A stretch of 64,000 bases of DNA. It comes from Bacillota bacterium (GTDB lineage: Bacteria; Bacillota; Clostridia; Oscillospirales; Oscillospiraceae). The stretch is taken from NCBI GenBank assembly GCA_021768085.1, contig JAETOJ010000009.1, positions 1 through 64,000 on the forward strand, in the 5' to 3' direction. A model generated the notes under the pieces. That model was not told the origin of the DNA, searched no databases, and saw nothing but the letters and a program-made list of their open reading frames with translations. Made by a program: the position numbers and the translations under genes. Below, one piece after another: positions 46,462-62,077 of the stretch (positions are counted from its first letter, which is position 1; every line of letters begins with the position of its first letter).

Positions 46462-47820
46462 CTACCGCTTGCCCTCCCGGGCGTCGTGGTACATAGCCGC
46501 CACGACCACGGCCTTTAATGTTTCCTTGCGGAGGTTGAGGTCCGTCGCGCATACCTCCGCCGGGGTCCCGCCGTTCACGGCTCCAGCCTCCAGGAGCGCG
46601 GCGGCGGTCGGTTGCCAGTATTTCGGGACGTCCTTCAAATCCTTATAGACCGGGTTCTCCTCGTCGAGGACCTCCTTCACGGTCTCCCGGATCAGGGCCT
46701 TTAATTCCTCTTTGCTCATGTTCTCGATCTCCTCCTCATAGCTGATATAGGGGATTTTCCCCCACTTGGTCCACTTGCGGGCGTTGTATCCGGCCTTTGT
46801 TCCGATATTGGAGACGGCGGTCACTTGGACCTTGTTCCTCCATTTCGGAGTACACTCGACCGCGAGGCCGTCCCCGATATATACCCCGATATGTCCGGGG
46901 AGCCATACTGCCGCCCCTGGGACGATCCGGGAGAAATCGGTGGAGACCTCCTTGCAAATTTTAATCATTCCGTCCGCCGAGACGTCCGGGCAAGCTCCCG
47001 CCGCAAAAGCCGCCGCGGTCGGATAGGTCGCGCCGCCGTATCTTTTGGAGGCGTCCCCACTCCAGCCCCACAAAATCCCCTTTATGAGGTTCACGCAATC
47101 AAATCCGAATGTATCGGCGGAGGCGGCGTTGATCCGCGCCTTTTGGGCCTCGCTTGTATTGTAGGCGTGATTTTTTGTATACCGCGCCTTGTTCTCCGGC
47201 GTCATAGGGGCCCCAAAGCACCCCATAACATAGAGCGTCTTATAGTTTCCCGCCACGGTGAGGAGCTTGTCCACAAACACGCCGGAGGGCATGAGGCCGG
47301 AGGTATCCGCCGGGGCGTATCGGTCAAAGTAGGTTTTCCCGTATCCGGCGCGGCGGGCCCGGGCGGCCTCCCCCTGGTCCGCGGGCCGCTCAAACTGGAG
47401 GAGAACGGCGTCGGAGGCGGCGCGGATGTCCTGGGCGCTTTTCAGCGTTGAGAGGACGCCCTTGTAGCTCCCGGCGAGCTCCTGGAGTAAAAATCCGACT
47501 TGCGCCTCCAGGTCCCCCACGGACCGCCCCGCCGCCCGGACATAGGCCAGGAGGGCCGCCTTGCGGGTTTTATAGGTCCACTGTGCGAGGCCGTACCCCG
47601 CGCCGTCCCCGGCGAAATTGGTATAGGTCCCGGCGTCCACGGCGGCGGTATAGGCGGCGTCGGTGAGGCCGAGCTTTTTCTCGTGGGTGTTCTGGAGGTT
47701 CTCCGGGTTGAGGCCGCTCTCGGCGTAAAGGTTCCCCATGAGGCCCGCCGCCCCCGCGGGCGTGAGCCCCGCGGCGGCGAGGCGGCTCCAGATATATTTT
47801 TCTCTTTCTGCGACCGTCAT
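46462..47820 (-). CDS. Two-domain phage endolysin (tail-lysozyme and NlpC/P60)
   Basis: 452 residues. Residues 1-170: lysozyme-like domain with GLMGNLYAESGLNP (catalytic Glu) and GYGLAQWTYKTRKAALL. Residues about 230-360: NlpC/P60-like cysteine peptidase with FDCVNLIKG (Cys) and PGHIGVYIGDGLAVEC (His). The C-terminal 90 residues carry no catalytic motif and may bind the wall. No signal peptide, so release depends on the holin just upstream (4-bp overlap). I start at the ATG at 47820; longer frames read back through the holin gene. Confidence 0.85.
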   Translation of the reverse strand: MTVAEREKYIWSRLAAAGLTPAGAAGLMGNLYAESGLNPENLQNTHEKKLGLTDAAYTAAVDAGTYTNFAGDGAGYGLAQWTYKTRKAALLAYVRAAGRSVGDLEAQVGFLLQELAGSYKGVLSTLKSAQDIRAASDAVLLQFERPADQGEAARARRAGYGKTYFDRYAPADTSGLMPSGVFVDKLLTVAGNYKTLYVMGCFGAPMTPENKARYTKNHAYNTSEAQKARINAASADTFGFDCVNLIKGILWGWSGDASKRYGGATYPTAAAFAAGACPDVSADGMIKICKEVSTDFSRIVPGAAVWLPGHIGVYIGDGLAVECTPKWRNKVQVTAVSNIGTKAGYNARKWTKWGKIPYISYEEEIENMSKEELKALIRETVKEVLDEENPVYKDLKDVPKYWQPTAAALLEAGAVNGGTPAEVCATDLNLRKETLKAVVVAAMYHDAREGKR

Positions 47821-48266
47821 TTCAGCAGCTCCTCTCCCTTGTTTTCCGTGGTCTTTTTCAGCTTTTGGATCAGCGCCACAAGGAAGGACGGGAGCGGGAC
47901 GCCGATCTCGGAGATATTCTCCAGGATCGAAATACACTCATTGAGAATAAGCCAGATTGTCACGAGGAGCCCGAAAAAGAAGAATCCGCCGAAATCGACC
48001 CCGAGCTGGCCCGCCGCCGTCTGGACCACCCAATCGGCCACGATCGCCACGACGACGGCCAGCAGATAGGAGACCTTTTTCACGATCCCCAAAACGCCGA
48101 CGCGGGAACAAAGCTCGCCCCGGGTCCATGCCCGGACCATGCCGGAAACATAGTCCACGACCATTGCAAGGAAAAGGACCACGACCGGGAGGGCGAGTTC
48201 CTGGAAGTAGGCCGCGGCTCCGGCCACGGCGGCGGCGATCACGCCGCGGAAAATGTTCTCTTTCAT
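47817..48266 (-). CDS. Phage holin (phage_holin_4 / Cp-1 family)
   Basis: 149 residues, three to four membrane segments (VIAAAVAGAAAYFQEL, VVVLFLAMVVDYVSGM, VSYLLAVVVAIVADWVV, FFFFGLLVTIWLILNE). DYVSGMVRAW and NECISILENI are family hallmarks. The charged C-terminus faces the cytoplasm. AAGGAGGA precedes the ATG. Makes membrane holes at the end of the lytic cycle. Confidence 0.88.
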   Translation of the reverse strand: MKENIFRGVIAAAVAGAAAYFQELALPVVVLFLAMVVDYVSGMVRAWTRGELCSRVGVLGIVKKVSYLLAVVVAIVADWVVQTAAGQLGVDFGGFFFFGLLVTIWLILNECISILENISEIGVPLPSFLVALIQKLKKTTENKGEELLK

Positions 48267-48285: not shown

Positions 48286-49119
48286 TTAAAGTGCGGCCCG
48301 AATAGCCGCGATAATATCCGCCTTGAGGGTTTTCCCCGCGAGGTTGATCCCGCGCTCCTGGGCGTATGCCTTGAGCTGGGGGATCGTCATAGCCTCCAGG
48401 TCCACGGCCTCCTCCGCCGCGGGCGCGGGCTTGTCCGGGAGGCTCCAGGCGTCCGGGTCGTCGTCCGGGCCGAAATTCGTCTCCCGGAGACATTCCCGGA
48501 CGGTCCCGTCCGTCCAGACCATAAACTCGCCCGCCTTGTATGTATCGTGGGCCCCCTGGACCTCCACAAAGGGGCGGGCGGTCTCCGGCGTGTTGCCGTG
48601 GAGCGGTCTCCAGAACGTGCGCCACGCGGTCCCCTCCGGGGAAATATCGGGATGTTCCGCGGCGTTGTGTCCCTGGAAACACTCCCACGTCTGGCCGTCC
48701 GCGTTCCTCACGTCTCCGGCCTCGTAGTCCGCCCCGGGCGTCCAGTCCTCATAAAGGGCGGAGACGGCGATCCGCTGGCCGTCGTCGAGGTCCAGCCCCG
48801 GCAACGTCAGGCGGGCGACCTTTGCGGCGGCGATCGTGGCCTCCGGCCCCATGCGCTGAACGGTCGCGGCGACGGGGAGGGTGTGGTCCACCTCCACGAG
48901 TACACTCTCCAGCTCGTACCACTCATAGAAAAAGCCTCCTTCCTGGGCCTCGCGGATCAGGTCCCCGATAATGCACTCGTAGACGCTCCGCTTGTCCTCC
49001 TGTTCCCTGGTGAATGAGACGACGGGGTCCAGGACCTGGATCGCCTCGTCTGATTTAATGCGGAGGTAGCGGCGGGGCCGCCCGCCGTCCCTCATTACGC
49101 CGATCGTGTATTCAAGCAT
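48286..49119 (-). CDS. Tail-associated protein with carbohydrate-binding-like and HeH domains
   Basis: 277 residues. Residues 130-185 look like a short carbohydrate-binding module of the chitinase type (WTPGADYEAGDVRNADGQTW, FQGH, PDISPEGTAWRTFW). The last 35 residues (MTIPQLKAYAQERGINLAGK) match HeH/SAP-like helix-extension-helix domains. It starts inside the reverse transcriptase gene (25-bp overlap) with GGAGGAG, so it is co-translated with it. Common in Firmicute siphophages next to the tail tip; function not settled. Confidence 0.65.
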   Translation of the reverse strand: MLEYTIGVMRDGGRPRRYLRIKSDEAIQVLDPVVSFTREQEDKRSVYECIIGDLIREAQEGGFFYEWYELESVLVEVDHTLPVAATVQRMGPEATIAAAKVARLTLPGLDLDDGQRIAVSALYEDWTPGADYEAGDVRNADGQTWECFQGHNAAEHPDISPEGTAWRTFWRPLHGNTPETARPFVEVQGAHDTYKAGEFMVWTDGTVRECLRETNFGPDDDPDAWSLPDKPAPAAEEAVDLEAMTIPQLKAYAQERGINLAGKTLKADIIAAIRAAL

Positions 49120-50159
49120 AGGTTTCTCCTCCTTTTGTCTGCCTCCCGGACAGCGTTTTTCAAAACTGGCCGGATCGGTAGGACGTGCTTTTCATACTGT
49201 TTCTTGCCCGCACAATGTTTGAGCTGTCCGGCCCTGGACAGAATCCCCCTGGCCTGTTTCGGGTCTACCCGCCGCCGCGCCTCGATCCGTTTACTCGCCC
49301 TGGTGCATTGTCTTTTTAGGCGGAGGAGGTTTCGCTTGCGGATCATGGTCAAGCCCCGTTTCATGCGATACCCTACGGCGTCGACCATGCGCTTTCTCGT
49401 GTTGTATACTTGCCAATTTTCCTTTAGCCGTAGGCCCATACGGGCGAGGTATTCCATGATCGCCCGGATCGCCTTGTGTAACTTTTTCTTGTTCGGGCCG
49501 AAAAAAGTAAAATTGTCAATATACCTTGTATAGCGCCGGACTCCGAGCTTTTCCCGGATATAGTGATCCAGAGGCTCAAGGACGGCGTTTGCGAGCCATT
49601 GAGAAATATAAAATCCTATTTTGATCCCGTTCTTGATGATCCTCCATATAAGATCAAGAAAAGCCCGGTCCTTAATTTTCCGGCGTAAAAATCGCATAAC
49701 CACGCGAGGGGATAGGGAATCATAAAATTTCTTAATATCCGCCTCGACGCCGTATTTCGTGCCCTTGCGGTCCTTGTCGAGCCATTTTTCAATAGCCTTT
49801 TTCTCTTTGTGCGGGCCCCGGCCCGGGATACTTCCGCAACAAAAGCGATCCATACCCCGCATAAGGATAGGGCGCAAAACCTGGACAATCATGTGATGGA
49901 TATATTGGTCCGGCCAGAGGGCGGGCTCGTGGATGATCCGGGTTTTCCCGGCTGTTGGGTCGTACCGCTCAAAGGTCCGGTCGGGTTTTGGGCGGAAGTC
50001 CCGGACGATCTCGCAAAGCTCCTCCGCCCGTTGCTCCTTCGTCCGTTCCACCCATTGGGCGGTTTTATTGTCTTTGCGGTCCTCGTTTATTTCCGCGATC
50101 GCCTGGAGGGCGTTTTCCTTTGTTGCGAGGACCTCCATTAAAAATCCTGTTCGTTTCAT
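49095..50159 (-). CDS. Diversity-generating retroelement reverse transcriptase
   Basis: 354 residues. RT motifs in order: YGVEADIKKFYDSL with catalytic D141; the DGR hallmark GxxxSQ as IGFYISQWLAN (S186, Q187); the active-site box YIDN at 213-216, where most RTs have YxDD; then GYRMKRG and a basic C-terminus. Group II intron domains (maturase, endonuclease) are absent and the template repeat is 144 bp upstream. Copies TR RNA into adenine-mutated cDNA that replaces VR. The Asn in place of the second Asp is unexpected; see findings. Confidence 0.93.
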   Translation of the reverse strand: MKRTGFLMEVLATKENALQAIAEINEDRKDNKTAQWVERTKEQRAEELCEIVRDFRPKPDRTFERYDPTAGKTRIIHEPALWPDQYIHHMIVQVLRPILMRGMDRFCCGSIPGRGPHKEKKAIEKWLDKDRKGTKYGVEADIKKFYDSLSPRVVMRFLRRKIKDRAFLDLIWRIIKNGIKIGFYISQWLANAVLEPLDHYIREKLGVRRYTRYIDNFTFFGPNKKKLHKAIRAIMEYLARMGLRLKENWQVYNTRKRMVDAVGYRMKRGLTMIRKRNLLRLKRQCTRASKRIEARRRVDPKQARGILSRAGQLKHCAGKKQYEKHVLPIRPVLKNAVREADKRRRNLCLNTRSA

Positions 50160-50251
50160 GTTCGCCTCTCGGATGTAAATAAATTTTCTTATTCACCTCA
50201 CGGTCTTTCAAATCCAAAAGGGCTTACTAAACCGTGTCCCTACGGCAATTT

Positions 50252-50566
50252 TTACCGAGCGGTATGGAAAAGGCTACGCGGTGAGACTGTTTCTTGAATA
50301 AGTAGGCGCGAGCCGAGGTTGCCGTTGGTGTTGGACGGCGCGTTGTTGCCGTTGAGGTAGAACGGCCCCGCGTTGGTGCCGTTGTTGTAGTTGCCGCCGA
50401 CATAGAGGGCCCGGACCCCGGTGTTATAGTTGCAATAATCCGGGACGCGGGAGCCAAAAACCCGGTCGCATAGCGTAGCCAGTCCCTTATATTTGTATCC
50501 CTCCCTCCTATTCGTCAGTGTGTGCTTATCGTTACCTCCGGGGGGTTGCGACCCCCCGGTCCCCCT
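50252..50566 (-). other. Open frame carrying the template repeat in frame with the target gene
   Basis: After the single TAA of the receptor-binding gene (50567-50569) the same frame stays open for 104 codons to a TAA at 50252-50254. It includes the whole TR, which reads VPDYCNYNTGVRALYVGG and so on with an Asn-rich pattern. No ATG or GTG start with a ribosome site is seen. Could be chance in GC-rich DNA, a relic of the duplication that made TR, or reached by rare read-through. Confidence 0.4.
50304..50447 (-). repeat. DGR template repeat (TR)
   Basis: 144 bp, aligned without gaps to VR at 50583-50726. It differs at 14 positions; each is an A in the coding strand of TR (T as given) and becomes C, G or T in VR. 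Of roughly 33 such adenines, most lie in AAC codons, the pattern that lets one codon give many residues. Non-adenine positions are identical throughout. Identity runs unbroken over the first 15 bp (50304-50318), the likely initiation end. Confidence 0.97.
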
Positions 50567-50574
50567 TTAGGGGA
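50538..50574 (-). other. Two hairpins beside VR (candidate retrohoming structures)
   Basis: Hairpin 1: CCGGGGGGT (50538-50546) and ACCCCCCGG (50551-50559) with a 4-nt loop. Hairpin 2: CCCC (50562-50565), loop TTTA, GGGG (50570-50573), containing the target's stop codon. They lie 9 to 45 bp beyond the end of VR; the matching position beside TR has no such stem. In the Bordetella phage DGR a hairpin just downstream of VR promotes target recognition. Confidence 0.6.
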
Positions 50575-53119
50575 GTTTTTGAAGGCGCGAGCCGAGGAGG
50601 CCGTAGGTGTTGGACGGCGCGTTGTCGCCGCTGAGGTAGAACGGCCCCGCGCCGGCGCCGATGCTGTAGTAGCCGCCGACACAGAGGGCCCGGACCCCGG
50701 TGTAATAGCTGCAATAATCCGGGACGAACGTCGTCTCGGACCCGCCGACCTCCGAGGGATAGATAAAGCTCGGGTCGTTTGTGTCGTGGCCCCACGCCTT
50801 GATCCAGCCTCCCGTCGTGGCCCGCTTGTTGCTCCGTACCGTTGCCCCGGTCCCGTTGTAGCTGTCGGAGAAGTTGGCCGGGTTGTTGTAGGTGGAAATA
50901 TTCGCGTCGGAGAAAATGATCCCGTCGCGCCACTCAAGGACGTTGCCCCACGGGTTTTCAATGTTCCGATACTGGACCGCCGTCTGGCCGTCCGTTCCGG
51001 CGGCGCGGCCCGTGTGGTATGTCATGGAATCCGTGGCCCCGGTGTTGATTTTCGCGCCGGAGCTCACGTTGCCCTGTCCGATCGCGGTCTGTCCGTTCCA
51101 ATCCGCATACTCCACGATATACAAAAACCACCATGTCAAATGTAAAGCAATATCCGCTTGCCAGTAGGTCGCGCCGAGGGCGTGAATCCCGCTCCTGAAG
51201 GTGGCGAGGGGCGTCGAGACTTTCGGGGCCTGTCCGCTCCTGGACATATAGGAGCCGTCGCACTCATAGCGGCCAATATAGACCACGTCGCGCTCGCCCT
51301 TGCCGTCCCCGCGGTCCCGGTGGGCCGGGGATACCTGATAGCCCGGAGTCGCCTTGTCCGCGATCTGGACCTTAAAGGGCGCGTGAGATACCTTTACCCA
51401 ATATTTCGGAATGGCGACGAGGACGTTATTCCCGTCCGTGGTTTTCGTCATGCCGGACCACGGGAGGCGGTTGTCAAAGGGGGAGGACCCGGCCCCGTTG
51501 CCGACGGCTGGGACGGGGTCCGTAAAGAGGCCCGCGTCGTCCGTCCTGGTGAGCTTGGTCGTGCTGGAGCCGTCCCACGACGCGCCGTAGATGTGGACAT
51601 AGGCGAGGGAGATCGTTTTCGACTGGCCGGAGGCGGTGATCTGGACCGTCCCGCTCGCCTCCTGTCCGCTCTTTGTGGCGGTGATCGTATAGGTCCCGGC
51701 CTCCTTTACCGTAAAGACGGCGGAGCCCGTAGAGGTCTTTGTCTGCGTGTTGGAGCCCTTCGCACAAGTAACGGTCGAGCCGCTCTCCACGTTGACGGTG
51801 ATCGTCGCGGAGAAAAATTCAAGGTTGAGGGTTTTCGACTGGCCGCCCGCCGTGATCTGGACGCTCCCGCTCGTGGTCTCCCCGTTCATGGAGCCTACGA
51901 TCTGCCACGTCGCCGCATTGTGGATCGTAAACACGACGGAGCCGTTAGAGGTCCCGTCGAGGGTGGTCGTCCCGTCCGTACAAGTGACATAGGCCCCGGC
52001 GGCGATATTGACGGTGATCGTGGATCGGAAATATTCGAGGGTGAGGGTCTCCGACTGGCCGGAGGCGGTGATCTGGACCGTTCCGCTCGTGGTCTCGTCC
52101 CCCGTGGTGGCCGTTATGGTGTAGGTGGCCGCCGAGGTAACGGTAAAGACGACGGAGCCCGTCTCGGAGGTTTTGGTCTGCGTCTTTCCGCCGCCCTCGC
52201 ATACCACGGAGGAGCCCGCCTCCACGTTGACGGTGATCGTGGACTCAAAAAAGGCCAGGGCGGCGGCGTACTGTTTCGCCGTGTCGACCACGACGTCGAC
52301 GGTGTTCGAGGGGAGGCCGTCCCGCTCCGCCGAGACGCTCCAGGTCCCATAATCCGGGACATTGAACACGACCGCCGCGCCCGTGGAGGTCTGCTCGTAG
52401 CTCTTGGAGCCGTTGGAGCACGTCACGGCGGCCCCCGCCGCCACGGTCACAATAATTTGAGGATAGAGGCCGCCCGCCGCCTGTGCGGCCTCCAGGGCCT
52501 CGTCTGCGGTCTCCAGGGCCTCCGTCGCCGCGGCCTGGGCGGTGCTGGCCGCCGAGGAGGCGGAGGCCGCCGCGGTCTGTGCTGTCTCCGCCGCACCCTG
52601 GGCCGTGGCCGCCGCGTCCGCCGCGGTCTGTGCGTCCTCCTTTGCCTGTGCGGCGTCCTGGGCCGCCTGTGTGGCCGTCGTGGCCGCCGTCGTAGCTTTA
52701 CCCTCCGCCGCCGCCGCGGCCTCCTGGGCGGCTTTTGCGGCGTCCTTGGCGTCCTTTGCCGAGGTCCCCGCCGCTGTTGCGGCCTCCTGGGCCGTTGTGG
52801 CCGCGTCCCTGGTCTCCGTAACGGCGGCGATCAGGTCGGCATGGTCCTTTGCGGTGAAGTTCCGCCCGATCAGCTCCCCCGCCGTCCATGCCTTGGCGGT
52901 TCCTTCGACGCCCCTTTGACAGCCGGAGAGGGCGGTCTCCGTTTTGGCCGTATAGAGGATGGTCTCGCCCTCCTCGTCGGTGCCAATGGTGGCGAGGTTC
53001 GGGGCGGGCGGAAACGCCGAGACGTCCGAGACTTCGATAATGGAGTCCGCCGCGCCGATATTGTTCGTGAGGGTGGCTTGCGGTGAGAACGGAATACCGG
53101 GATAGAGTGTTGTCGCCAT
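50567..53119 (-). CDS. DGR-diversified receptor-binding tail protein
   Basis: 850 residues. Residues 1-100: virion-attachment region. Residues 100-215: Ala-rich coiled coil (repeats of AAxTAQxAA), likely a trimeric stalk. Residues 215-520: four or so related modules of about 75 residues (ITVNVEAGSSVVCEGG, SGTVQITASGQSKT) that look Ig/PEGA-like. Residues 560-850: C-type-lectin/formylglycine-enzyme-like fold (WGNVLEWRDG, GVRALCVGGYYS) ending in VR, so the varied residues (12 changed) form the binding face. A direct parallel to the phage Mtd adhesin system. Confidence 0.9.
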   Translation of the reverse strand: MATTLYPGIPFSPQATLTNNIGAADSIIEVSDVSAFPPAPNLATIGTDEEGETILYTAKTETALSGCQRGVEGTAKAWTAGELIGRNFTAKDHADLIAAVTETRDAATTAQEAATAAGTSAKDAKDAAKAAQEAAAAAEGKATTAATTATQAAQDAAQAKEDAQTAADAAATAQGAAETAQTAAASASSAASTAQAAATEALETADEALEAAQAAGGLYPQIIVTVAAGAAVTCSNGSKSYEQTSTGAAVVFNVPDYGTWSVSAERDGLPSNTVDVVVDTAKQYAAALAFFESTITVNVEAGSSVVCEGGGKTQTKTSETGSVVFTVTSAATYTITATTGDETTSGTVQITASGQSETLTLEYFRSTITVNIAAGAYVTCTDGTTTLDGTSNGSVVFTIHNAATWQIVGSMNGETTSGSVQITAGGQSKTLNLEFFSATITVNVESGSTVTCAKGSNTQTKTSTGSAVFTVKEAGTYTITATKSGQEASGTVQITASGQSKTISLAYVHIYGASWDGSSTTKLTRTDDAGLFTDPVPAVGNGAGSSPFDNRLPWSGMTKTTDGNNVLVAIPKYWVKVSHAPFKVQIADKATPGYQVSPAHRDRGDGKGERDVVYIGRYECDGSYMSRSGQAPKVSTPLATFRSGIHALGATYWQADIALHLTWWFLYIVEYADWNGQTAIGQGNVSSGAKINTGATDSMTYHTGRAAGTDGQTAVQYRNIENPWGNVLEWRDGIIFSDANISTYNNPANFSDSYNGTGATVRSNKRATTGGWIKAWGHDTNDPSFIYPSEVGGSETTFVPDYCSYYTGVRALCVGGYYSIGAGAGPFYLSGDNAPSNTYGLLGSRLQKLP
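50583..50726 (-). repeat. DGR variable repeat (VR)
   Basis: The last 48 codons of the receptor-binding gene. Compared with TR the changes at protein level are N to S, Y, Y, S, I, G, S, D, Y and L, plus Y to C and T to A. All arise from A-to-other changes, two codons being hit twice. Shows that this retroelement has been active since VR was last identical to TR. Confidence 0.97.
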
Positions 53120-53130
53120 AGAAAAACCTC

Positions 53131-55170
53131 CTAAACTGTTTTATCCCCGCGGGATTGAATAAAGCCTTGCACGATCAAGTCAATACTGATATAGGCGAGG
53201 TCGTCCGGGCGCACCTCCAGAGATAGCCAGCTCCCCCGGGGGATCATGTTGTCCGATCCCGTCAAGAGGTCCGTAATATCAAGCTCCGCCGTCCTCCCGG
53301 AGAAATCCGCCTTTTTCGCCCCGTTGATGTAGAGGCCGAATTTTTGAGGGTTCCCATACTGATAAATTCCCGGCGTGATATTGTGGGAATGAGAGGGGAC
53401 CGTTACCTTGTGGGAGTGCCCCGGGATCGTGATCGTGTGCCTGTGGTCCGGGATGGTGACGCGGTGGGAATGGCCCGGGATCGTGGTCGTGTGGGAGTGC
53501 GCCGGGATGGTGACGCGGTGGGTGTGGTCGTCTACGGTGTGCGTGTGCGACGGGATCATGTGAGAGTGCGCCGGGTGGATATGAGCGCCGGAGTCCACCC
53601 AATTCTCATACCCTGCCGCAATCACGGCCCCGTCCTCCGTCTTTCCCCCATAGACCGCGAGTTTTACTCCATTATGGAGGCCGTGGTTATGTACCGCCTG
53701 CCCGGTGGTCTCATGCGGGAGGACGTTCGAGCTCTCAAGGGCCGTCGCGCTGGAGGTGGCCCCGCCGCCGCTGGAGGTTGTTTGTCCGCCGCCGCTGGAG
53801 CTGGTGGCCGTGGTCCGGCCCCCGTCGGAGCTTGTCCGGGTTTGGTCGTCGCTGGTGGTGGTGGTCGAGGTGGTCCGGCCCCCGTCGGAGCTTGTCCGGG
53901 TTTGGTCGTCGCTCGTGGTGGAGGTGACGACCTTCGCCGCGTCGCTCTCTGTGCTCTTGGAGTAGGCCCGGAATTTCGCCACTCTTACCTTGACGAGGAC
54001 CTTGTTTATAATCCGCATTTCCGCCGGGATGAAAAAGTCCATAACTGCCCCGGAGGCGGCGTCGCAATTCGCTTGGAGGGCTTGGCTATAAATTTGCGTG
54101 GCCCCCTGTGCATAGGTCTGTTCTATCCTCTGTCGGTCCGCCATATCGGCCAGGGAGGAGGCGATCGAGGTCTCCTTGTTCGCCACTACCAAAGAGGACC
54201 GCTCCACGTCCTCATAATCCCGCTTGATCTCCGTAATGAACGTGTCCACGTTCTCCCCGATCTCCGGGTAAACCATGCGGAGGCGTTTCCCTATGGCCGC
54301 CTTGTCAAAGTCGGAGGCGGTCATTTCCTGATAGCCTACGGAATAGGAGACGGCGGGCTCCTGGAGCTCCTGGAGCATAGCCGCCGCCGCGGCCTTGAGG
54401 GAGGCCGGGTCCTCATAGCGGCGGTCCGTCCATACCCTTTCTATGATCCCGTATTTATCCGTGATCGCTTTCGGGCTCTGGAGGTATGGGACGCCGCCGT
54501 TCACGCTCCCGATCCCGAGCTGGTTCACGCCCTCGCCATAGCCGAGGGGATAGAGGCGGGTCACGATATTTTGAGGGTCCCTTTGCCGCTGGTAGCTCGT
54601 CATATTGTGCCGCCGCCGGACGTACATTTCCGGGCGGCCTGTGGTGTCCAGCCGCTTTAATGACAGCCGCCACGGATAGACCGCCGTATTTGTCCGCCAT
54701 ATATAGGGGCCCGCGAGGGGCGTCGCCACGGAAAAGAGGGCGGAGAGGAGGGACTCTTGCTCCCACCCGTATTCAAATTGGTTTCGATAGTCGCACTCGT
54801 CCAGGACCCAATTTTTCACAAGCTGGTGATCCAGGACGTACCGGATCACGTCCGGGGTGTAGGTCCCGAGGTTCCCGACGACGTGATACCCGAAAAGGAT
54901 ATTGTCGATCAGGGTAGCGAGGACGTGTTCGCATTGATAGGCCACGCTCCCGGACTCGTCCACGGCGAGGGTCTCCGGCATGATCCGGTAAAGCTCCCCG
55001 CCGTTGTGCCGGACATAATAGAACGGCTTGCAATACTCATTTTTCGGGTCCTTGTAGGGGAGGGAGAAATAGAGATACCAAACGGCGTTTATCCGCTGTT
55101 GTTCTGAAATAGCGTGGGCGTTCTCCGCGATCGCTACCCGCCGCCGCGATTTATCAAAAATTTCTATCAT
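53131..55170 (-). CDS. Tail tip protein, minor structural/endopeptidase-like N-terminus
   Basis: 679 residues. Residues 1-370 match the Siphovirus tail-associated (Tal, ReqiPepy6 gp37-like) region: SEQQRINAVWYLYFSLPYKD, YRQCEHVLATL-type and VTRLYPLGYGEGVNQLGI. Then a Ser/Thr/Gly-rich linker (about 400-470) coded partly by a perfect 43-bp repeat (53811-53853 and 53871-53913), and a stretch (about 535-610) with repeated HxH (HTH, HSH, HRH). Such HxH sets bind iron or zinc in phage fibres. Between Dit-type genes and the receptor-binding gene, as expected for the tail tip. Confidence 0.82.
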   Translation of the reverse strand: MIEIFDKSRRRVAIAENAHAISEQQRINAVWYLYFSLPYKDPKNEYCKPFYYVRHNGGELYRIMPETLAVDESGSVAYQCEHVLATLIDNILFGYHVVGNLGTYTPDVIRYVLDHQLVKNWVLDECDYRNQFEYGWEQESLLSALFSVATPLAGPYIWRTNTAVYPWRLSLKRLDTTGRPEMYVRRRHNMTSYQRQRDPQNIVTRLYPLGYGEGVNQLGIGSVNGGVPYLQSPKAITDKYGIIERVWTDRRYEDPASLKAAAAAMLQELQEPAVSYSVGYQEMTASDFDKAAIGKRLRMVYPEIGENVDTFITEIKRDYEDVERSSLVVANKETSIASSLADMADRQRIEQTYAQGATQIYSQALQANCDAASGAVMDFFIPAEMRIINKVLVKVRVAKFRAYSKSTESDAAKVVTSTTSDDQTRTSSDGGRTTSTTTTSDDQTRTSSDGGRTTATSSSGGGQTTSSGGGATSSATALESSNVLPHETTGQAVHNHGLHNGVKLAVYGGKTEDGAVIAAGYENWVDSGAHIHPAHSHMIPSHTHTVDDHTHRVTIPAHSHTTTIPGHSHRVTIPDHRHTITIPGHSHKVTVPSHSHNITPGIYQYGNPQKFGLYINGAKKADFSGRTAELDITDLLTGSDNMIPRGSWLSLEVRPDDLAYISIDLIVQGFIQSRGDKTV
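53811..53913. repeat. 43-bp direct repeat inside tail tip gene
   Basis: TGGTCCGGCCCCCGTCGGAG and the next 23 bases occur twice at 60-bp spacing (53811-53853, 53871-53913). Encodes DDQTRTSSDGGRTT twice in the linker. May change length by recombination. Confidence 0.85.
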
Positions 55171-55865
55171 AGGTATCTCTCCGTATAAATGAGCTGTCCC
55201 CGGAGCTGGCCGCCGGAGGCGCTCTCAATAATGAGCCGGAGGAGGTCGCGGGAAATGTTGATCCAGTCCCCGGACTGTGTATGCAAGGCGTTTTCCCCGT
55301 CCAGGAGGACGAGGAAAAGCCCGCTATCTATCCGCAATTCTCCCCCGGGCGGGATCGTGAGCTGGAGGGTCGTCCGTTCTGTGGTCTGTGAGGTTGCCTC
55401 TAACATGGAGGTCAGGACCTCGGAGCCCTTGAGGAGGGCCGGGACATTCTTCGATCCCGCCGCCGCCGCGGCGAGGCGGTCCGCAAGCTCCAGGGGGGCG
55501 GGGACATTCTTCGCGCCCTGGGCCTGTGCGGTCAGCGTGTCCCGGGCGGCCAGCGCCGCGGGCGTGTTCTTCTGGCCGTACATGGAGCCCCGGAGGGCCT
55601 CGGATAGGGCGGCCCGGGTCACTACGTCCGCCGACATTTTCGCCGTCGTAAAGAGGCCGGAGGCCGCCGAGAACGCGGAAATAACGGAGACCGTCCCCCG
55701 GGCGGAGCCCTGGAGGGCCTCCGCGTATTTGTCCCGAAAATCGACGGGGATCGCGGCCCCGGCGACCGCTCCCATAGCCTCGGAAAAGCTCTCCGCGATC
55801 TCGACCGTCTTTGTCTCCTGGTTGACGGAATACCGGGCGAGGCTATACCGCCTATCGTTATACAT
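55167..55865 (-). CDS. Phage tail protein of unknown function
   Basis: 232 residues, not recognised as a named family. Ala-rich helical middle with two similar segments (AALAARDTLTAQAQGAKNVP, LELADRLAAAAAGSKNVPAL) and a C-terminal beta-rich end (LTIPPGGELRIDSGLFLVLLDG, HTQSGDWINI). Coupled by 4-bp and 1-bp overlaps to its neighbours in the tail operon. Likely baseplate or tail-tip part. Confidence 0.65.
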   Translation of the reverse strand: MYNDRRYSLARYSVNQETKTVEIAESFSEAMGAVAGAAIPVDFRDKYAEALQGSARGTVSVISAFSAASGLFTTAKMSADVVTRAALSEALRGSMYGQKNTPAALAARDTLTAQAQGAKNVPAPLELADRLAAAAAGSKNVPALLKGSEVLTSMLEATSQTTERTTLQLTIPPGGELRIDSGLFLVLLDGENALHTQSGDWINISRDLLRLIIESASGGQLRGQLIYTERYL

Positions 55866-56644
55866 TAGTTGATCCCTACCTCCACGGCCCCCTCCGCGAT
55901 CGTGGGCATATACCCGCGCTTGAGCTCCACGGACTCCGTCAGGGGCTTAATATAGACGGGCTCGCCGGAGGTCTCGGCGGAGTAGAGGGCGGAATAGGTC
56001 CAGGTCCCCCACGCGGTCGAGGGCCTGGGAAACGCCGCCGCCGTGGAGTTTCGGGCGATAATCTGGCCGGAGGTCTGCTCCGCCGGGGCCCCAAAGGTGA
56101 GCGCGACCCGCTGGTAATTGTCGCCGGACAGCTCGGAGCCCGCCGCCTCCGGCGATCCGTTCCAGAGGGAAAAATAGGGCGTGATCCCCTGGATCGAGTT
56201 CCCCCGGAAGATGTTCAAAACCTTCGTTTTCCACGCCTTGGAGAGGTTCCCGGTGAGGTAGAAAAGCACGTCCCCGGCCAGGAATACGGGGGGCTCCTCC
56301 GCCCCGATAATGAGCGGCTCCACAAGCTCGCCCCGGGCGAGCATATTCCCGCCCGTGAGGGAATCCACGACGCCGATATGTGTAATAGTTCCCGCCGCCG
56401 AGACGGGGGTCGGGAAAGTAATGTCGGTGAGGTTCTGAATCCCGATCCCGCCGTTAGAATCGGCCGGCGCGGAAAAGTCAATTTCCATCCGCTTATATCC
56501 GGTATAGCTTACCTCCGTCCCTCCCGCTCCGGTCTCGCCGGGGTCGTTAAGGTAGAGGGCGAGGTAGCATTTCGCCGGAGCCGCAAAAGTGACGCCGCGG
56601 AGGGCGTTCAAAATCCCGTTTTCCAGGTAGTCGCAAGCGTACAT
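55865..56644 (-). CDS. Phage tail/baseplate protein with duplicated beta domain
   Basis: 259 residues. Two similar halves: MYACDYLENGILNALRGVTF with YLALYLNDPGETGAGGTEVS, and KVLNIFRGNSIQGITPYFSLW with GSPEAAGSELSG; both run on to a similar beta segment (MEIDFSAP versus VALTFGAP) and an aromatic/positive stretch. This head-to-tail pairing suggests a duplicated small tail-fibre domain. I start at the ATG at 56644 with AGGAG-type site; the longer frame runs into the Dit gene. Confidence 0.7.
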   Translation of the reverse strand: MYACDYLENGILNALRGVTFAAPAKCYLALYLNDPGETGAGGTEVSYTGYKRMEIDFSAPADSNGGIGIQNLTDITFPTPVSAAGTITHIGVVDSLTGGNMLARGELVEPLIIGAEEPPVFLAGDVLFYLTGNLSKAWKTKVLNIFRGNSIQGITPYFSLWNGSPEAAGSELSGDNYQRVALTFGAPAEQTSGQIIARNSTAAAFPRPSTAWGTWTYSALYSAETSGEPVYIKPLTESVELKRGYMPTIAEGAVEVGIN

Positions 56645-56646
56645 AA

Positions 56647-57180
56647 TCAAACACTCCTTTTTATGGCCGTTATGGTGACGGTGAGGACGTCCGCGTCGGA
56701 GAGGTTCCTCAAGACGATAATGCAAGGGGTCTCCGCTGTGCCCTGGTAGTCGACCGGGTTCTCCCCGGAGGCGATCGGCTGGGTCACGGTCCGCCCGAGG
56801 GCAAAGGGCGGGTTATAGTTCCATGTGAGATCAAACTCCCCGTATTTGAGGTGTTGCGCCATAGGGGGGCCGCCGGAGATACGGGCCGTATAGTATTTGT
56901 CCGGCTCCTTATCGTAGGTGAGCCGCCCGGTCCCGGACAGCCAATAGGCGATCTCCCGGCATACCTCCGGGACGGTTTTCCCGCTCGGGCATTTGAACGC
57001 ACAATGAATAGTCTCGGCCCGCTCGTCGTATACGTTCCCGACCACGCCGTCATAATAGCCGGAGCGGCCAGGAATGACGACTTTCCCCTCCCGCCGCGGG
57101 GGGAGAATGATCCGGCTCGTGTCCTGTGTGTAAATCCCGAATTTGCTACTATGAACGCCCCGGAAAGAAAATCCGCTCAT
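56647..57180 (-). CDS. Distal tail protein (Dit family)
   Basis: 177 residues. FRGVHSSKFGIYTQDTSRIILPPRR, then VVIPGRSGYYD, is the start of Dit-like (SPP1 gp19.1, SIPHO tail) proteins, which form the hub at the tail end between tape measure and tip. Overlaps the tape measure stop by 4 bp. Confidence 0.85.
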   Translation of the reverse strand: MSGFSFRGVHSSKFGIYTQDTSRIILPPRREGKVVIPGRSGYYDGVVGNVYDERAETIHCAFKCPSGKTVPEVCREIAYWLSGTGRLTYDKEPDKYYTARISGGPPMAQHLKYGEFDLTWNYNPPFALGRTVTQPIASGENPVDYQGTAETPCIIVLRNLSDADVLTVTITAIKRSV

Positions 57181-60100
57181 AAGCTCCCGCCTCCTCTCGA
57201 TCTGCTTTCCCGCTCCGTGAGATAGTAAAGCTCCCGGGCGACCCGCCCGACGTCCTGGTCGTCCCGGACCTCCAGCTTGTCGACGTAGATCGCAATACCC
57301 CCGGGCCCGCCGCCGCGGTTCTGGACCGCCGCCACGATCGCCGCGGTCTGTTCCCGTTGGGCGGCGAGGAGGCCCGCCTCCGTCCCGCTCGGGCGGCTTT
57401 TTTCGTATGCCCGGATCGCGGACTCGGCGAGTGTGGAATAGGTCCGCTCCAGGTTCGGCCCCTCCTCCTCGGCTCCTTCAATCGCGCCCCGGATCGTGTT
57501 CTTTCCGCTTTCCTTGAAAACGCGGGACGGTGAATGTATGTCAAGCGTGGATTTATAGGCATTATTCGCCGCGTTTGCGAGGGAGCGATATGTGGAAACA
57601 AGGGAGGAGCGCATACTCTCTGCGCCGTCGATATAGCCGTCTATGGTAGCCATGCCCGCGGCCTGGGCCTCCGCCGAGGCGTCCAGCTCGTCCGCCATTT
57701 CCTTTACACGGTCCTCTATGTCCTTCATTTTGTCGGAAAAATCGGTTTCCATTTCGGCCACGGTCTCGGAAAATGCCTCTTTGCCCTCCTCCACTTTTGC
57801 AAGCTGTTCATTAAGGGCGGCTATATCCTCCTCGCCGCCTTCCACGATGGCCGCGAGAATTTGGGCGGACTCCTCGGAGCCGTCGGACAGCTTACGGATC
57901 AGGCCCTCGTCGACGCCGAGCTCCATAGCCTTTTGAATGTTGGCGGCGTAGGTTTCCATATAGGAGACCTGCCCCTGGAGGGTCCCGATCAGGTTGTCAA
58001 TGGAAGTTTTCGCCGATCCGTCCAGCTCGTTAAAAAGGCCGAGCTGTCCGTCTATGCTCTCCATAGCGGAGTTATAGCTTTCCTCATAGGCCGCCTGGAG
58101 GCTTTCCATTTCGGAAATCAGCCCCTCGACGGTCTGTGTTGCCTCCTGGGTCTTTTGTGCGGTCGCCTCCTGTTGGGCCGTATATTCCGCCGTGGCGGCC
58201 TCCAGCTCCGCGATCTGCGCGGCGTTTTCCTCCTGGGCGGCGGTCAGGGCTTTTACATTGTTCTCCTCCGTTGCCGTAAACCACGCGCCGGACTCTTTCG
58301 CCGCCGAAAGTTCCGCCTCCGCCTGTTCGAGCTCCTGGGCGATCTGCGCCTCCTCTTTTCGGAGCTCCGTCAAGCGGGCGACCTGGGCCTCCATTTCCTC
58401 TTGTTCCGCCGACTTTTCGATCATAGCGCCGAGGGCGTCGGTCGTCATATTGATTGAATCGGCGGTTTCATCATAGGCGAGGCCGAGGCCCGGGACGGCC
58501 TCGTTTAGTTCGTCGACTAACTGTTTTATATTTTCCTTTTGGGTGGCCGACTTTTCCTCTACGGCGAGGAGGTTCTCCAGGGCCGCAAGGGAGGCGGAGG
58601 TCGAGGCTTGCTCCTCCTCCATAGCGGCGGAGAGGTCCTCATAGGCCGTTTTCGTTTCTTCAAGGGACGCCGTAAACTCTTTTACTTGTTCGGACGCCTC
58701 TGTCGCCGATACGATCCAGCTCCCCACGACGGCGATCAGGGCCCCCGCCGCCGCCGTGACGGCAAGGATCGGACAGAGGGACATAGAGAGGTTGAGGGCG
58801 TCTTGCACCACTTTAGCGGCGGCGGTTACCGCCGTATAGGCCGCAAAGCCCGCCGATAGGAGCCCGATCGCCGTAACTGCCCCCGTGATCGCTTGCACGA
58901 GCCACGGGTTTTCATTTGCGAAATCCGTCGCCCACGAAAAGGCGTCCGCCCCGGTGCTATACAGTTTTTCGAGCGCCGGGTTCAGTTGATCGCCGATTGC
59001 AATTTTTAGATTTTCCGCGGCGGTTGTCATTCGCTGGTGTGCAAATTCCGTTGTATCCGCCATAGTCTGGAAATTACGATCGACCGCGCCGGAGCTGTTC
59101 GCCATGACGCCGAGGGTCCGGTCAAATTCTTCCGCCCCGGTGTTGAGGAGAGAGAGGGCCGCCTTGCCCGCCGTGGTGCTACTCCAAAGGTTGGAGAACG
59201 CGGTCGCGTCCCCGTCGACGCTGTCGGAGAGGATCGTCATAATGTCCCCGAGGTTGGAGCCGCTCCCCATGAGCTCGGCAAAGCTCTTTCCGGTTTGATC
59301 CTCCAGAATCCCGGCCACGTTGGAGCCGCTCTTTGCCAGCTCGTCCAGCATAGCGCCGAGGTTGGTCGTCGAAATCGCCGTATTCATACCGCCTTTTGTG
59401 AGGAGTGCATAGGCGGTTGTCAGGTTTTCGAGGCTTACGTTATAAGCGGCGGCGGATGGGATCACGCGGCCTATGTTCGCGGCCAGCTCGCCGACCGATG
59501 TCTTGCCCTCGTCCTGTGTCTTTACGAGCATAGAGGCCACGCGCTCGGCCTCTGTCCCCTCCAGCTTGTAGGAGTTGATCGCGGTCGTCAGAACGTCGAC
59601 GGCGGTCGCGGAATCGGTAAATCCCGCCGTCGAGGTCTTTGTTGCCGTGGCGACAAAGTTCACGACGTCCGCCGTATCCACGCCCGCCGAGAGGGCTTGA
59701 TAGGCCGCCTCGGATAGAGCCCCCACGGCGACGCCTGTCTCGGAGGACAGCTCCAGAAATTGAGCCTTGAGGGTCTCAAGCGGGACCTTTGTTGTGTCTG
59801 CCAGGGTTGAGACCTTCGCCATTGAGGTCTCAAAGCCCGCCGCGGCCTCCGCGCATTCAAGGAGGACGTCCGCGATCTCCTTCACGGTTTTAGCAATCCC
59901 CGCGGCGGCCAGGGCAGAGGCGAGGGCGTCGATCCCCTTTTTTGATCCCTCGACCTCATTCCCAAACTCGTCTATGGAATCCGCGCACCCGTCGGCGCTG
60001 TTGCGGGCCTCGTCAAGATAGCCGTTATTCTTGTCGATCTCGTCGGATAGGCCGTTTAACTCGACCTTTGCGTTATTGAGCTGTTTTTGCCAATTCTGGA

Positions 60101-60539
60101 CGCCGCGCTCCGCCGCCGCCTGTCCGGCCTGGGCCTCCTCAAGTTCGGAGTTCCATTTGTCGAGCTCCTTTGTGAGGGCCTCTTGTTCCTCCGTCGTGTC
60201 CCCCGTGGACCGCCGCAAGTTCTCAAGGGCCCGCTCGCACCGCTCTATATTGCTCTGTGCCGTGGATACGCGGGAGGCGTATTCCTCCTGGGCCCGCTGG
60301 GCGTTACGGAGTGCGGCCTCCAGGGTGGAGACCTTTTCCTGTTGCTTTTTATACATGGAGTCCAGGGCGGCCCCCTTGGCCGTGAGGGCCTCCATGCTGT
60401 TAGCGTTGCCGCGAAATTCGCTCTCCACAAGGGCAAGGCCCGACTTGAGCGTGGACAGTTCAGAATTACAAGCGGCGATCGCCTGTTTATATTGGGCCTC
60501 GCCCTCGACGGCGAGTTTCGTCGAAATGGTTCTTGCCAT
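57177..60539 (-). CDS. Tail tape measure protein
   Basis: 1120 residues. Long coiled coil at both ends; the first 250 residues have Gln/Glu-rich heptads, residues about 210-500 include the TMP core domain (AAAGFETSMAKVSTLADTTKVPLETL, ALSEAAYQALSAGVDTADVVNF), then hydrophobic stretches about 545-625 (AITGAVTAIGLLSAGFAAYTAV) that may enter the host membrane. Length sets tail length, roughly 1.5 angstrom per residue in known cases. Gene order GT - lipoprotein - TMP - Dit is standard apart from the insert. Confidence 0.92.
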   Translation of the reverse strand: MARTISTKLAVEGEAQYKQAIAACNSELSTLKSGLALVESEFRGNANSMEALTAKGAALDSMYKKQQEKVSTLEAALRNAQRAQEEYASRVSTAQSNIERCERALENLRRSTGDTTEEQEALTKELDKWNSELEEAQAGQAAAERGVQNWQKQLNNAKVELNGLSDEIDKNNGYLDEARNSADGCADSIDEFGNEVEGSKKGIDALASALAAAGIAKTVKEIADVLLECAEAAAGFETSMAKVSTLADTTKVPLETLKAQFLELSSETGVAVGALSEAAYQALSAGVDTADVVNFVATATKTSTAGFTDSATAVDVLTTAINSYKLEGTEAERVASMLVKTQDEGKTSVGELAANIGRVIPSAAAYNVSLENLTTAYALLTKGGMNTAISTTNLGAMLDELAKSGSNVAGILEDQTGKSFAELMGSGSNLGDIMTILSDSVDGDATAFSNLWSSTTAGKAALSLLNTGAEEFDRTLGVMANSSGAVDRNFQTMADTTEFAHQRMTTAAENLKIAIGDQLNPALEKLYSTGADAFSWATDFANENPWLVQAITGAVTAIGLLSAGFAAYTAVTAAAKVVQDALNLSMSLCPILAVTAAAGALIAVVGSWIVSATEASEQVKEFTASLEETKTAYEDLSAAMEEEQASTSASLAALENLLAVEEKSATQKENIKQLVDELNEAVPGLGLAYDETADSINMTTDALGAMIEKSAEQEEMEAQVARLTELRKEEAQIAQELEQAEAELSAAKESGAWFTATEENNVKALTAAQEENAAQIAELEAATAEYTAQQEATAQKTQEATQTVEGLISEMESLQAAYEESYNSAMESIDGQLGLFNELDGSAKTSIDNLIGTLQGQVSYMETYAANIQKAMELGVDEGLIRKLSDGSEESAQILAAIVEGGEEDIAALNEQLAKVEEGKEAFSETVAEMETDFSDKMKDIEDRVKEMADELDASAEAQAAGMATIDGYIDGAESMRSSLVSTYRSLANAANNAYKSTLDIHSPSRVFKESGKNTIRGAIEGAEEEGPNLERTYSTLAESAIRAYEKSRPSGTEAGLLAAQREQTAAIVAAVQNRGGGPGGIAIYVDKLEVRDDQDVGRVARELYYLTERESRSRGGGSL

Positions 60540-60579
60540 GCGCGGCGGCTCCTTTCTATGGCAATAATCAATTTTTTAC

Positions 60580-60608
60580 TTGATATTGCCATAAAGTCAG
60601 GCTATAAT
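60580..60608 (+). promoter_or_regulatory. Promoter of prophage lipoprotein gene
   Basis: TTGATA (60580-60585), 17 nt, TATAAT (60603-60608), on the strand opposite to all other phage genes. Confidence 0.85.
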
Positions 60609-60657
60609 TTCCCTTGTGAAATGCGATAATTTCGCGCTATTATTGGAGGTGGTTCTT

Positions 60658-61443
60658 TTGAAAAAAGCTCTTTGCCTTTTCCTTTCGCTTTTCCTGGTGG
60701 TTTTTCTCCCCGCTTGCTCCAGTGACAGCGGAAACGCCCCGCCGCCGGAGGTCTCCTCCACCGCGGAAACTCCTCCCGCCGTCCCGGAGTACGATCTCAT
60801 AAACTCCGACGAGTACGTCCAGAACGGAAAAAGCGGGATCGGCTACCGTGTAGTGATCGGCGACGACGCCACGGAGGAGGAAATGAGGGCCGTTTTTTCC
60901 GCCCTTTGTTCCGGCGACTCATACGCATTACATACGGTTTGGTATTATGGGCTCGCCTCCGATGTGGAGACGGTCGGCGCTTTCTCTGTTGGTATGCTTG
61001 AGGAGGTCGCCCCGGGTGGTTATCCCGAGTTTACTCCATGCACCTACGGGGAGGAGCTTATAGCCTCTCTCCGCGGCCAGGGCTCCGACGTGAACACGGC
61101 GGGAGACGTTCGCAGTATCCCGGACCTGTCTATCACGCAAGAGGCCCTCGCCCCGGATAACTCTTTTTCTCCCGCTCCGGCGGAGATATTCTCCACGACC
61201 GCCGAGGAAAACGGCCTCGCCGATATGGCTTTTTATGCAGACGGCGAGATCGTTTCCCGCTCCGACGTCGGCGGTTATGACACGATCCAGGTCGCCACGG
61301 AGGAGGGGGACCTATATATTTCCGCGGTCCTTGTCGACCTCCCGGAAATATCCGAGGTGGAGGCCGTCACGGTGTATTTTGTATATACCGGATGGTCCGA
61401 AAAGCTCGGCGGCGCGTGTGGCGCTTATGTTTATAGCGAGTGA
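60658..61443 (+). CDS. Prophage 'moron' lipoprotein of unknown function
   Basis: 261 residues from a TTG start with GGAGG 9 nt before it. Lipoprotein signal KKALCLFLSLFLVVFLPAC with the acceptor Cys at residue 20, then a Ser/Pro/Glu linker and a compact acidic domain (YRVVIGDDATEEEMRAVFSA, YDTIQVATEEGDLYISAVLV). It is the only rightward gene in the prophage, lies between the tail chaperones and the tape measure, and has its own promoter (60580) and terminator (61455). These features mark it as a lysogeny-expressed cargo gene. Superinfection exclusion, as by lipoproteins in the same place in streptococcal phages, is a reasonable guess. Confidence 0.8.
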   Translation: MKKALCLFLSLFLVVFLPACSSDSGNAPPPEVSSTAETPPAVPEYDLINSDEYVQNGKSGIGYRVVIGDDATEEEMRAVFSALCSGDSYALHTVWYYGLASDVETVGAFSVGMLEEVAPGGYPEFTPCTYGEELIASLRGQGSDVNTAGDVRSIPDLSITQEALAPDNSFSPAPAEIFSTTAEENGLADMAFYADGEIVSRSDVGGYDTIQVATEEGDLYISAVLVDLPEISEVEAVTVYFVYTGWSEKLGGACGAYVYSE

Positions 61444-61454
61444 CTATCCATTTC

Positions 61455-61480
61455 CGCCGGAGGGGTCCGCCCCTCCGGCG
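61455..61480 (+). terminator. Terminator of moron lipoprotein gene
   Basis: Perfect stem CGCCGGAGGGG / CCCCTCCGGCG with a TCCG loop, ending 1 bp before the stop codon of the tail chaperone frameshift product. Confidence 0.75.
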
Positions 61481-62022
61481 TTATTCGTCCTCCGGTTCCG
61501 TCCTTCTCCGCACCCCCCGGGCCCGGAGGTATAGCTCGAACAGGTCCGCCACTTCCCCGGGCGGCATGAGGAGGGCGTCTTTCGGCGATAGGCCCGCCGC
61601 TATCCCTTCCCGGAGGTACTCCACCCGCGTTACTTCGTTTTTTTTTGCGTGTTGAGCTCCGCAAGGCCGAGGTCGACCTCGTCGTTTTCCGGCTCGACTT
61701 CCCGGCCATATCCGAGGGAGATCGCCGCCGGGATTGCCAGCTTGAGGGCGACGATCTCATTCGGGGCGGCGGTTGCCGCAATCGTCGAGGCGTCGAGGAT
61801 GGGCTCCGGGTCATACCCGAAATTTCGCCGGACAAGCTCCCCCTGTTCGGCCAGGAGCGCGGCGGCCTCGCAAGCGATAGAAAAGCCCTCCCGGGTGTCT
61901 GCTTTCATGTTGTCGAGGAGCTGGGACGTTCCGCCGAATTTATCCCGCATTTGGAACATAGCCTCCCCGGTAAAGGCGAGGTATCGCACCCGGCCCGCAA
62001 GGTTGATTTTTACGGCTTTCAT
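61481..62022 (-). CDS. Tail assembly chaperone GT (-1 frameshift product)
   Basis: G is read to a run of nine A's in the mRNA (61646-61638 on the minus strand). A -1 slip on A_AAA_AAA continues as NEVTRVEYLREGIAAGL, then SPKDALLMPPGEVADLFELY and a charged end to the stop at 61481. The T part has no start codon of its own, and SPKDALLMPPGEVADL is typical for T domains. GT and G recruit major tail protein to the tape measure in lambda-like assembly. Frame of slip is inferred from sequence. Confidence 0.75.
61630..62022 (-). CDS. Tail assembly chaperone G
   Basis: 130 residues, ends ELNTQKKTK at a stop just after the slippery run. Start MKAVKINLAGRVRYLAFTGEAMFQMRDKFGG is typical for the Firmicute phage tail-chaperone (gp14/gpG-type) family. 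Between major tail protein and tape measure. Confidence 0.8.
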   Translation of the reverse strand: MKAVKINLAGRVRYLAFTGEAMFQMRDKFGGTSQLLDNMKADTREGFSIACEAAALLAEQGELVRRNFGYDPEPILDASTIAATAAPNEIVALKLAIPAAISLGYGREVEPENDEVDLGLAELNTQKKTK

Positions 62023-62046
62023 AGCGCCCTCCTGTAAATTCTTGTA

Positions 62047-62071
62047 GGGAGGCGGGTTTTCCCCGCCTCCC
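62047..62071. terminator. Hairpin between major tail protein and G genes
   Basis: Stem GGGAGGCGGG / CCCGCCTCCC with a TTTTC loop. On the minus strand no T-run follows, so it may lower transcription past the abundant major tail protein or protect its mRNA end. Confidence 0.5.
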
Positions 62072-62077
62072 TTTGTG

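Follow-up and report, generated by a model that had tools for sequence, protein, structure and literature searches.

Among the described diversity-generating retroelements (DGRs), that of Bordetella phage BPP-1 (mtd, avd, TR, brt) has a target gene with a variable repeat (VR), followed by a template repeat (TR) and then by a reverse transcriptase (RT), and its changes are adenine-directed. This order and directionality are shared by the locus described here, as are a hairpin beyond the VR, a TR–RT distance of 144 nt, and the RT fold; the locus lies in the first 64,000 nt of contig JAETOJ010000009.1 (hereafter the window) from the genome of an Oscillospiraceae bacterium of the gut (GCA_021768085.1). 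The two systems differ in that BPP-1 has a YMDD motif in its RT, avd between VR and TR, and the hairpin loop GAAA, whereas the window has YIDN, no bAvd gene nearby, and the loop CGCA. Butyrivibrio phage Idris (through locus L129, 99% identical) and Faecalibacterium phage FP_Epona are nearer to the window RT in our trees than BPP-1 is, and their TR and VR likewise differ at adenines (17/17 and 13/13, respectively); in FP_Epona, a gene annotated as a BPP-1-like tropism determinant stands ahead of the RT. Unlike the window RT, both retain the two motif C aspartates (RYMDDIVI in Idris, RYMDDVTI in FP_Epona). The RT of Lactobacillus phage LBR48 (37% identity over 97% of the query, with GFYSSQ) differs from the window RT in having the motif NIDD, and no TR/VR pair was found in its 5.9-kb stretch. 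As in the window RT, Asn replaces the second motif C Asp in polymerases of the Mononegavirales and Birnaviridae (PMC4634563), although these are RNA-dependent RNA polymerases, in which the change is independent of that in the RTs with a YxDN motif.

The window very probably contains a prophage DGR in which a phage RT with a YIDN motif copies the TR and thereby diversifies the tip of a tail fiber. As a phage tail-fiber DGR the locus is ordinary in kind, and the unusual part is YxDN at a motif, YxDD, that has been reported as fully conserved. In the proposed mechanism, the phage RT would make errors at adenines as it copies TR RNA, and the tail-fiber gene would then receive this cDNA at its 3' end in place of the VR, aided by the hairpin past the VR; the steps of priming, retrohoming, and receptor switching are those that we infer.

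The TR and VR (Table 1) align over 144 bp without a gap, and their 14 mismatches (8 A>G, 5 A>T, and 1 A>C) all fall on TR adenines, of which there are 33 in 144 positions, giving a chance of 8e-11 for 14 of 14. Twelve residues are altered between the two repeats, of which ten are encoded by AAC (Asn) and one each by TAT and ACC; because 21 TR codons contain an adenine, about 20 residues of the receptor-binding domain could be changed. When the host assembly (110 contigs, ∼91% complete) was searched with the TR, the matches at E ≤ 0.001 were the TR itself and the VR alone. An earlier note, made from these letters, had claimed the ungapped repeats, the adenine-only differences, the 12 changed residues (mainly at Asn codons), an RT with a GxxxSQ motif (here GFYISQ), and the order target, VR, TR, RT, all of which our coordinates for open reading frames (ORFs) and repeats and our alignments reproduce. 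Its placement of the locus among prophage tail genes agrees with the holin/endolysin, tail, capsid, portal, and terminase genes found around it, and several lines of evidence back its reading of the locus as a DGR of the phage tail-fiber type: the pattern of TR/VR differences, the hairpin, the folds of both RT and target, the RT tree, and relatives whose VRs differ over one shared TR. The note had also called the element active, and two such relatives (L005 and L006) support this for the lineage rather than for the strain in the window itself.

Relatives of the window RT at 91–93% identity were found on five IMG/VR contigs and on one contig of a metagenome-assembled genome (MAG), and a scan of genome contigs with the window RT returned one relative. 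Loci L005 and L006, whose records belong to different IMG datasets, share one TR sequence, yet between their VRs there are 18 differences, 18/18 at TR adenines; another pair with identical TRs (L034 and L036) has VRs that differ at 23 sites, 22 of them at A. Within single loci, the TR and VR differ at A in 13/13 cases for L005, 13/13 for L006, and 10/11 for L007. Compared with five relatives, the window RT has a dN/dS of 0.09–0.11 and is thus under purifying selection. The pairs with identical TRs suggest that the DGR is in use. A same-genus genome holds a broken DGR remnant (L016, G007:C2), with a shortened target and an RT that lacks its front half and has the motif QMDN.

The fold of DGR target proteins is commonly of the C-type lectin kind, and in the window, too, the VR sits at the 3' end of its target gene, the product of which has a model that matches DGR variable proteins. 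The target gene, which contains three repeats 216 bp apart, matches the tail protein family phrog_5302 (E 4e-48), and its last 345 aa were modeled with AlphaFold (53 rows) at a pLDDT of 94.6. The best match of this model in the PDB is TaqVP (5vf4; E 1.5e-9, TM 0.53/0.48), followed by a weaker match to Mtd (1yu4; E 2e-4, TM 0.35/0.33), while a search of the PDB by sequence gave nothing at E ≤ 0.1. The predicted C-terminal domain therefore resembles DGR variable proteins, and the VR, which occupies the end of this modeled domain, would by likeness to those proteins form the receptor-binding surface.

In phage DGRs, a hairpin with a GC-rich stem of 7–10 bp and a 4-nt loop is usual past the VR. 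In the window, a stretch of 55 nt past the VR folds into two hairpins (z -3.65), and the 9-bp stem also folds as DNA. Hairpins with stems of 7 bp or more and a 4-nt loop, at most 70 bp from the VR, are present in 41/71 loci of the main clade of YxDN RTs (to which the window RT belongs), 21/78 YxDD loci, and 4/4 loci of a minor YxDN clade, against shuffle expectations of 0.2, 0.2, and 0.0, respectively; the loop is CGCA in 21 of the 41 main-clade loci with a hairpin (71 examined). In BPP-1, the hairpin past the VR is needed for efficient retrohoming, and the loop consensus in phages is GRNA (PMC3240598). The window has a 9-bp stem and a 4-nt loop, and this loop, CGCA, deviates from GRNA at its first base.

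The window RT matches phrog_1423 (E 1e-78), and its AlphaFold model (pLDDT 96.1) has as its best PDB match a DGR RT, 8ub7 (TM 0.82/0.89), which we take to be the BPP-1 bRT, consistent with the equal motifs. It falls within the DGR RT clade in trees that held the BPP-1 bRT and other RTs with TR/VR pairs, that is, DGR RTs only. D141 (motif A), R74, I181, and GFYISQ are retained; R74 and I181 are positions aligned to the BPP-1 bRT, where they presumably bear on fidelity. Reverse transcriptases are taught to require three catalytic carboxylates, and YxDD is a described trait of DGR RTs rather than a criterion for membership; the window RT instead has YIDN. Codon 216 is AAT in the window and AAT or AAC in the five relatives, and across 86 aligned RTs D141 and D215 are invariant, with either Asp or Asn at position 216. 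In DiGReF, both YxDD aspartates were 100% conserved among DGR RTs (PMC3521204), and a second survey gave Y(V/M)DD for 57 sequences (PMC4244168). A YxDN motif in DGR RTs was not mentioned in the literature searched, which did not extend to supplements and most subscription journals, where a mention is possible; the main text of Roux et al. 2021 does not use the words "motif" or "catalytic" (PMC8144416). No other part of the locus is as informative as the YIDN active site, which, like the hairpin, was absent from the earlier note. A natural clade in which one carboxylate is replaced, and whose products can be read in genomes, amounts to a natural experiment on catalysis, metal choice, and adenine infidelity, and filters that demand YxDD would throw out real phage DGRs.

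In total, 205 RT ORFs were gathered, of which 202 have a readable motif C (DN in 101, DD in 100, and GD in 1). These counts are no census: collection scans were seeded once with DN and once with DD proteins, with the best 80 loci taken from each, and the window RT and DN proteins served as seeds for the genome scans; repeat loci were dropped and near-copies kept. In a quick tree, 141 representatives (80% identity) stood for 202 RT ORFs no shorter than 250 aa, and the variable motif column had been removed. A minimum of three changes accounts for its 63 DN rows; the window RT is in an all-DN clade of 55 rows (SH-aLRT 100) made up of gut-type phage DGR RTs, and a clade of three DN rows is nested among YxDD rows. 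For a more careful tree we selected 58 of the 141 rows after eight (six DD, two DN) had been set aside; it puts the window in an all-DN clade of 20 rows (support 100/100) and also gives three changes; 0% of 200 bootstrap trees require one change only (5–95% range 3). A single clade of all YxDN rows, as a single origin would produce, was rejected on the quick tree (AU p 0.003). The third Asp/Asn change could reflect either reversion to Asp in L106 or another gain. The residue two positions past motif C varies along with it: Thr occurs in 92/101 DN vs. 5/100 DD ORFs, Val in 75/100 DD ORFs, and Tyr or Phe in the minor DN clade.

TR/VR pairs, sought with a finder that requires at least 75% of mismatches at A, were found in 76/94 main-clade YxDN, 5/6 minor-clade YxDN, and 80/94 YxDD loci, and in the main-clade pairs left after removal of duplicates (71), 1110/1159 mismatches are at A. 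Four RTs (L011, L014, L059, and L103) have altered SQ motifs (GYYICQ, GAFFSS, GLYTSI, and GAFFSA, respectively) and stand beside TR/VR pairs with 15/15, 23/23, 19/19, and 13/13 mismatches at A.

The bAvd profile (PF22296), which does match BPP-1, matched in 0/50 records with main-clade YxDN RTs (49 virus and one MAG, largely fragments; 50 of the ∼94 such loci), and in 0/39 other virus records (36 YxDD and 3 minor YxDN, often fragments). YxDD neighbors also go without it, so its absence is not linked to YxDN. A bAvd gene beside the window DGR was considered and rejected, as the sole match in the host genome lies on another contig (C33), beside another RT. bAvd is described as "often found" in DGRs and not as universal (PMC4159848).

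By analogy with natural polymerases that have a GDN motif, we infer that the YIDN RT remains the catalytic enzyme and that its metals are bound by D141 and D215. Other viral polymerases altered at the second Asp are less active or differ in the metal they require, but they are not inactivated (PMC4634563). Changed metal use in the YxDN RTs is our leading guess. Several points weigh against the interpretation of the locus as a DGR driven by its own RT. One of the 11 TR/VR differences in L007 is C>G, the pair finder favors A-type pairs, and 18/94 main-clade YxDN loci are without a pair (in some, the stretch ends near the RT). Furthermore, the TM-scores of the target model are moderate, and no bAvd was found, although BPP-1 is reported to be unable to synthesize cDNA when Avd is missing (PMC6642488). 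Finally, the host genome encodes two further DGR-type RTs of the DD type (L214, G000:C88:11000-19000, and L215, G000:C33:125000-130331, with the motifs RYMDD and RYADD), leaving room for help in trans.

If the YxDN RTs were dead or weak, a YxDD RT in the same cell might copy the TR in trans, as the RYMDD and RYADD enzymes of the host genome would allow; in L030, moreover, YMDN and YMDD RTs occur on one contig, and the TR/VR pair there adjoins the latter. This is nonetheless improbable in view of two genomes, each on one contig, in which RT genes were counted by PF00078 (E ≤ 1e-4). In G322, from the minor YxDN clade, the single RT found has YMDN, and the TR/VR pair is of the adenine type all the same (15/16 at A). 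In G118 (∼100% complete), 23/23 TR/VR differences are at A, and of its two RTs one has QMDN and the other PQGSGMSP and RYADD, motifs by which it looks like a group II intron RT. The invariance of D141 and D215 in the 86 rows and the dN/dS of the window RT likewise argue against help in trans.

A decayed DGR, with only past diversification of the VR and an inactivating D-to-N change, would agree with the usual lowering of polymerase activity upon changes of the second Asp (PMC4634563) and with the existence of a truncated relative (L016), but Asn is retained through a deep clade, with more than one change on the tree, and relatives with identical TRs have different VRs while the RT is under purifying selection. 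We consider decay even less credible than help in trans; plain inactivation by the D-to-N change is rejected in view of clade depth, selection, and VR turnover.

Error spectra were compared after removal of duplicates and exclusion of L030, L166, L168, L169, and loci without a readable DN or DD motif. Main-clade YxDN loci (71 loci, 1110 changes) have 5.1% A>C, 62.8% A>G, and 32.1% A>T, vs. 21.7, 49.4, and 29.0%, respectively, in YxDD loci (78 loci, 1246 changes), and the per-locus A>C share differs with p 4e-17 (kinship ignored). In NAC contexts, G insertion opposite A by the BPP-1 bRT amounts to 26.8% (PMC12875486), so that the low A>C of the main clade departs from the bRT pattern. With kinship again ignored, the share of mutated adenines did not differ in a comparison with 17 YxDD loci (p 0.12) and was 0.45 against 0.59 in a comparison with 78 (p 2e-9). 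It is conceivable, though rather doubtful, that D-to-N arose more than once in DGR RTs that are still mutagenic, with a main clade that is YxDNxT and Avd-free and rarely inserts dG opposite A, possibly in connection with the metal. Selection on the tail-fiber tip, or shared descent, instead of RT chemistry, stands at a little under an even chance as the source of the A-to-C deficit, given that genomic VRs are survivors of selection, that there are only about three independent Asp/Asn changes, and that A>C is <8% in 10/78 YxDD loci and >15% in 5/71 main-clade loci. The four loci of the minor YxDN clade, with A>C at 22/60 (37%), are a further point for it and leave D-to-N as the sole cause of low A>C unsupported. 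On the other side, the deficit is present at both adenines of AAC triplets (frame unchecked): 23/428 at the first A and 7/348 at the second in the main clade, vs. 56/310 and 62/256 in YxDD loci.

Table 1. Features of the DGR locus and its surroundings in the window.
Positions	Strand	Feature	Details
50567..53119	-	Target gene	ORF of 850 aa; tail-fiber-like protein; Ala-rich stretch near N-terminus
50583..50726	-	Variable repeat (VR)	3' end of target gene
50538..50559	-	GC-rich hairpin past VR	9-bp stem CCGGGGGGT/ACCCCCCGG; loop CGCA
50304..50447	-	Template repeat (TR)	Outside target gene
50160..50303	-	Spacer between TR and RT	144 nt, from coordinates; any function putative
49095..50159	-	DGR-type reverse transcriptase	354 aa; D141, GFYISQ, motif C YIDN (D215, N216), T218
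48286..49119	-	Gene overlapping RT 3' end	277 aa; SAP/Rho_N matches; CBM_5_12 match below cut-off
46462..48266	-	Endolysin-like and holin genes	Downstream
53131..62887	-	Upstream tail module	Endopeptidase-tail/minor protein, Dit, tape measure, major tail protein

The window comes from a contig of 89 kb that carries capsid, protease, portal, and terminase genes farther along, so that the location of the DGR in a prophage is well supported. The gene overlapping the RT at its 3' end clusters with related ORFs, 93 in all, from 88/197 loci. It has no bAvd match, and searches with two of its relatives gave nothing below E 0.05 in Pfam and nothing at E ≤ 1 in PHROGs, so that a new accessory protein is not supported; from its position, it is possibly a tail gene. 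Near the lysis end of the prophage, an ORF at 44647-45702 looks like an IS30-type transposase, and the tail protein encoded at 53131-55170 contains His-rich repeats of 27 bp.

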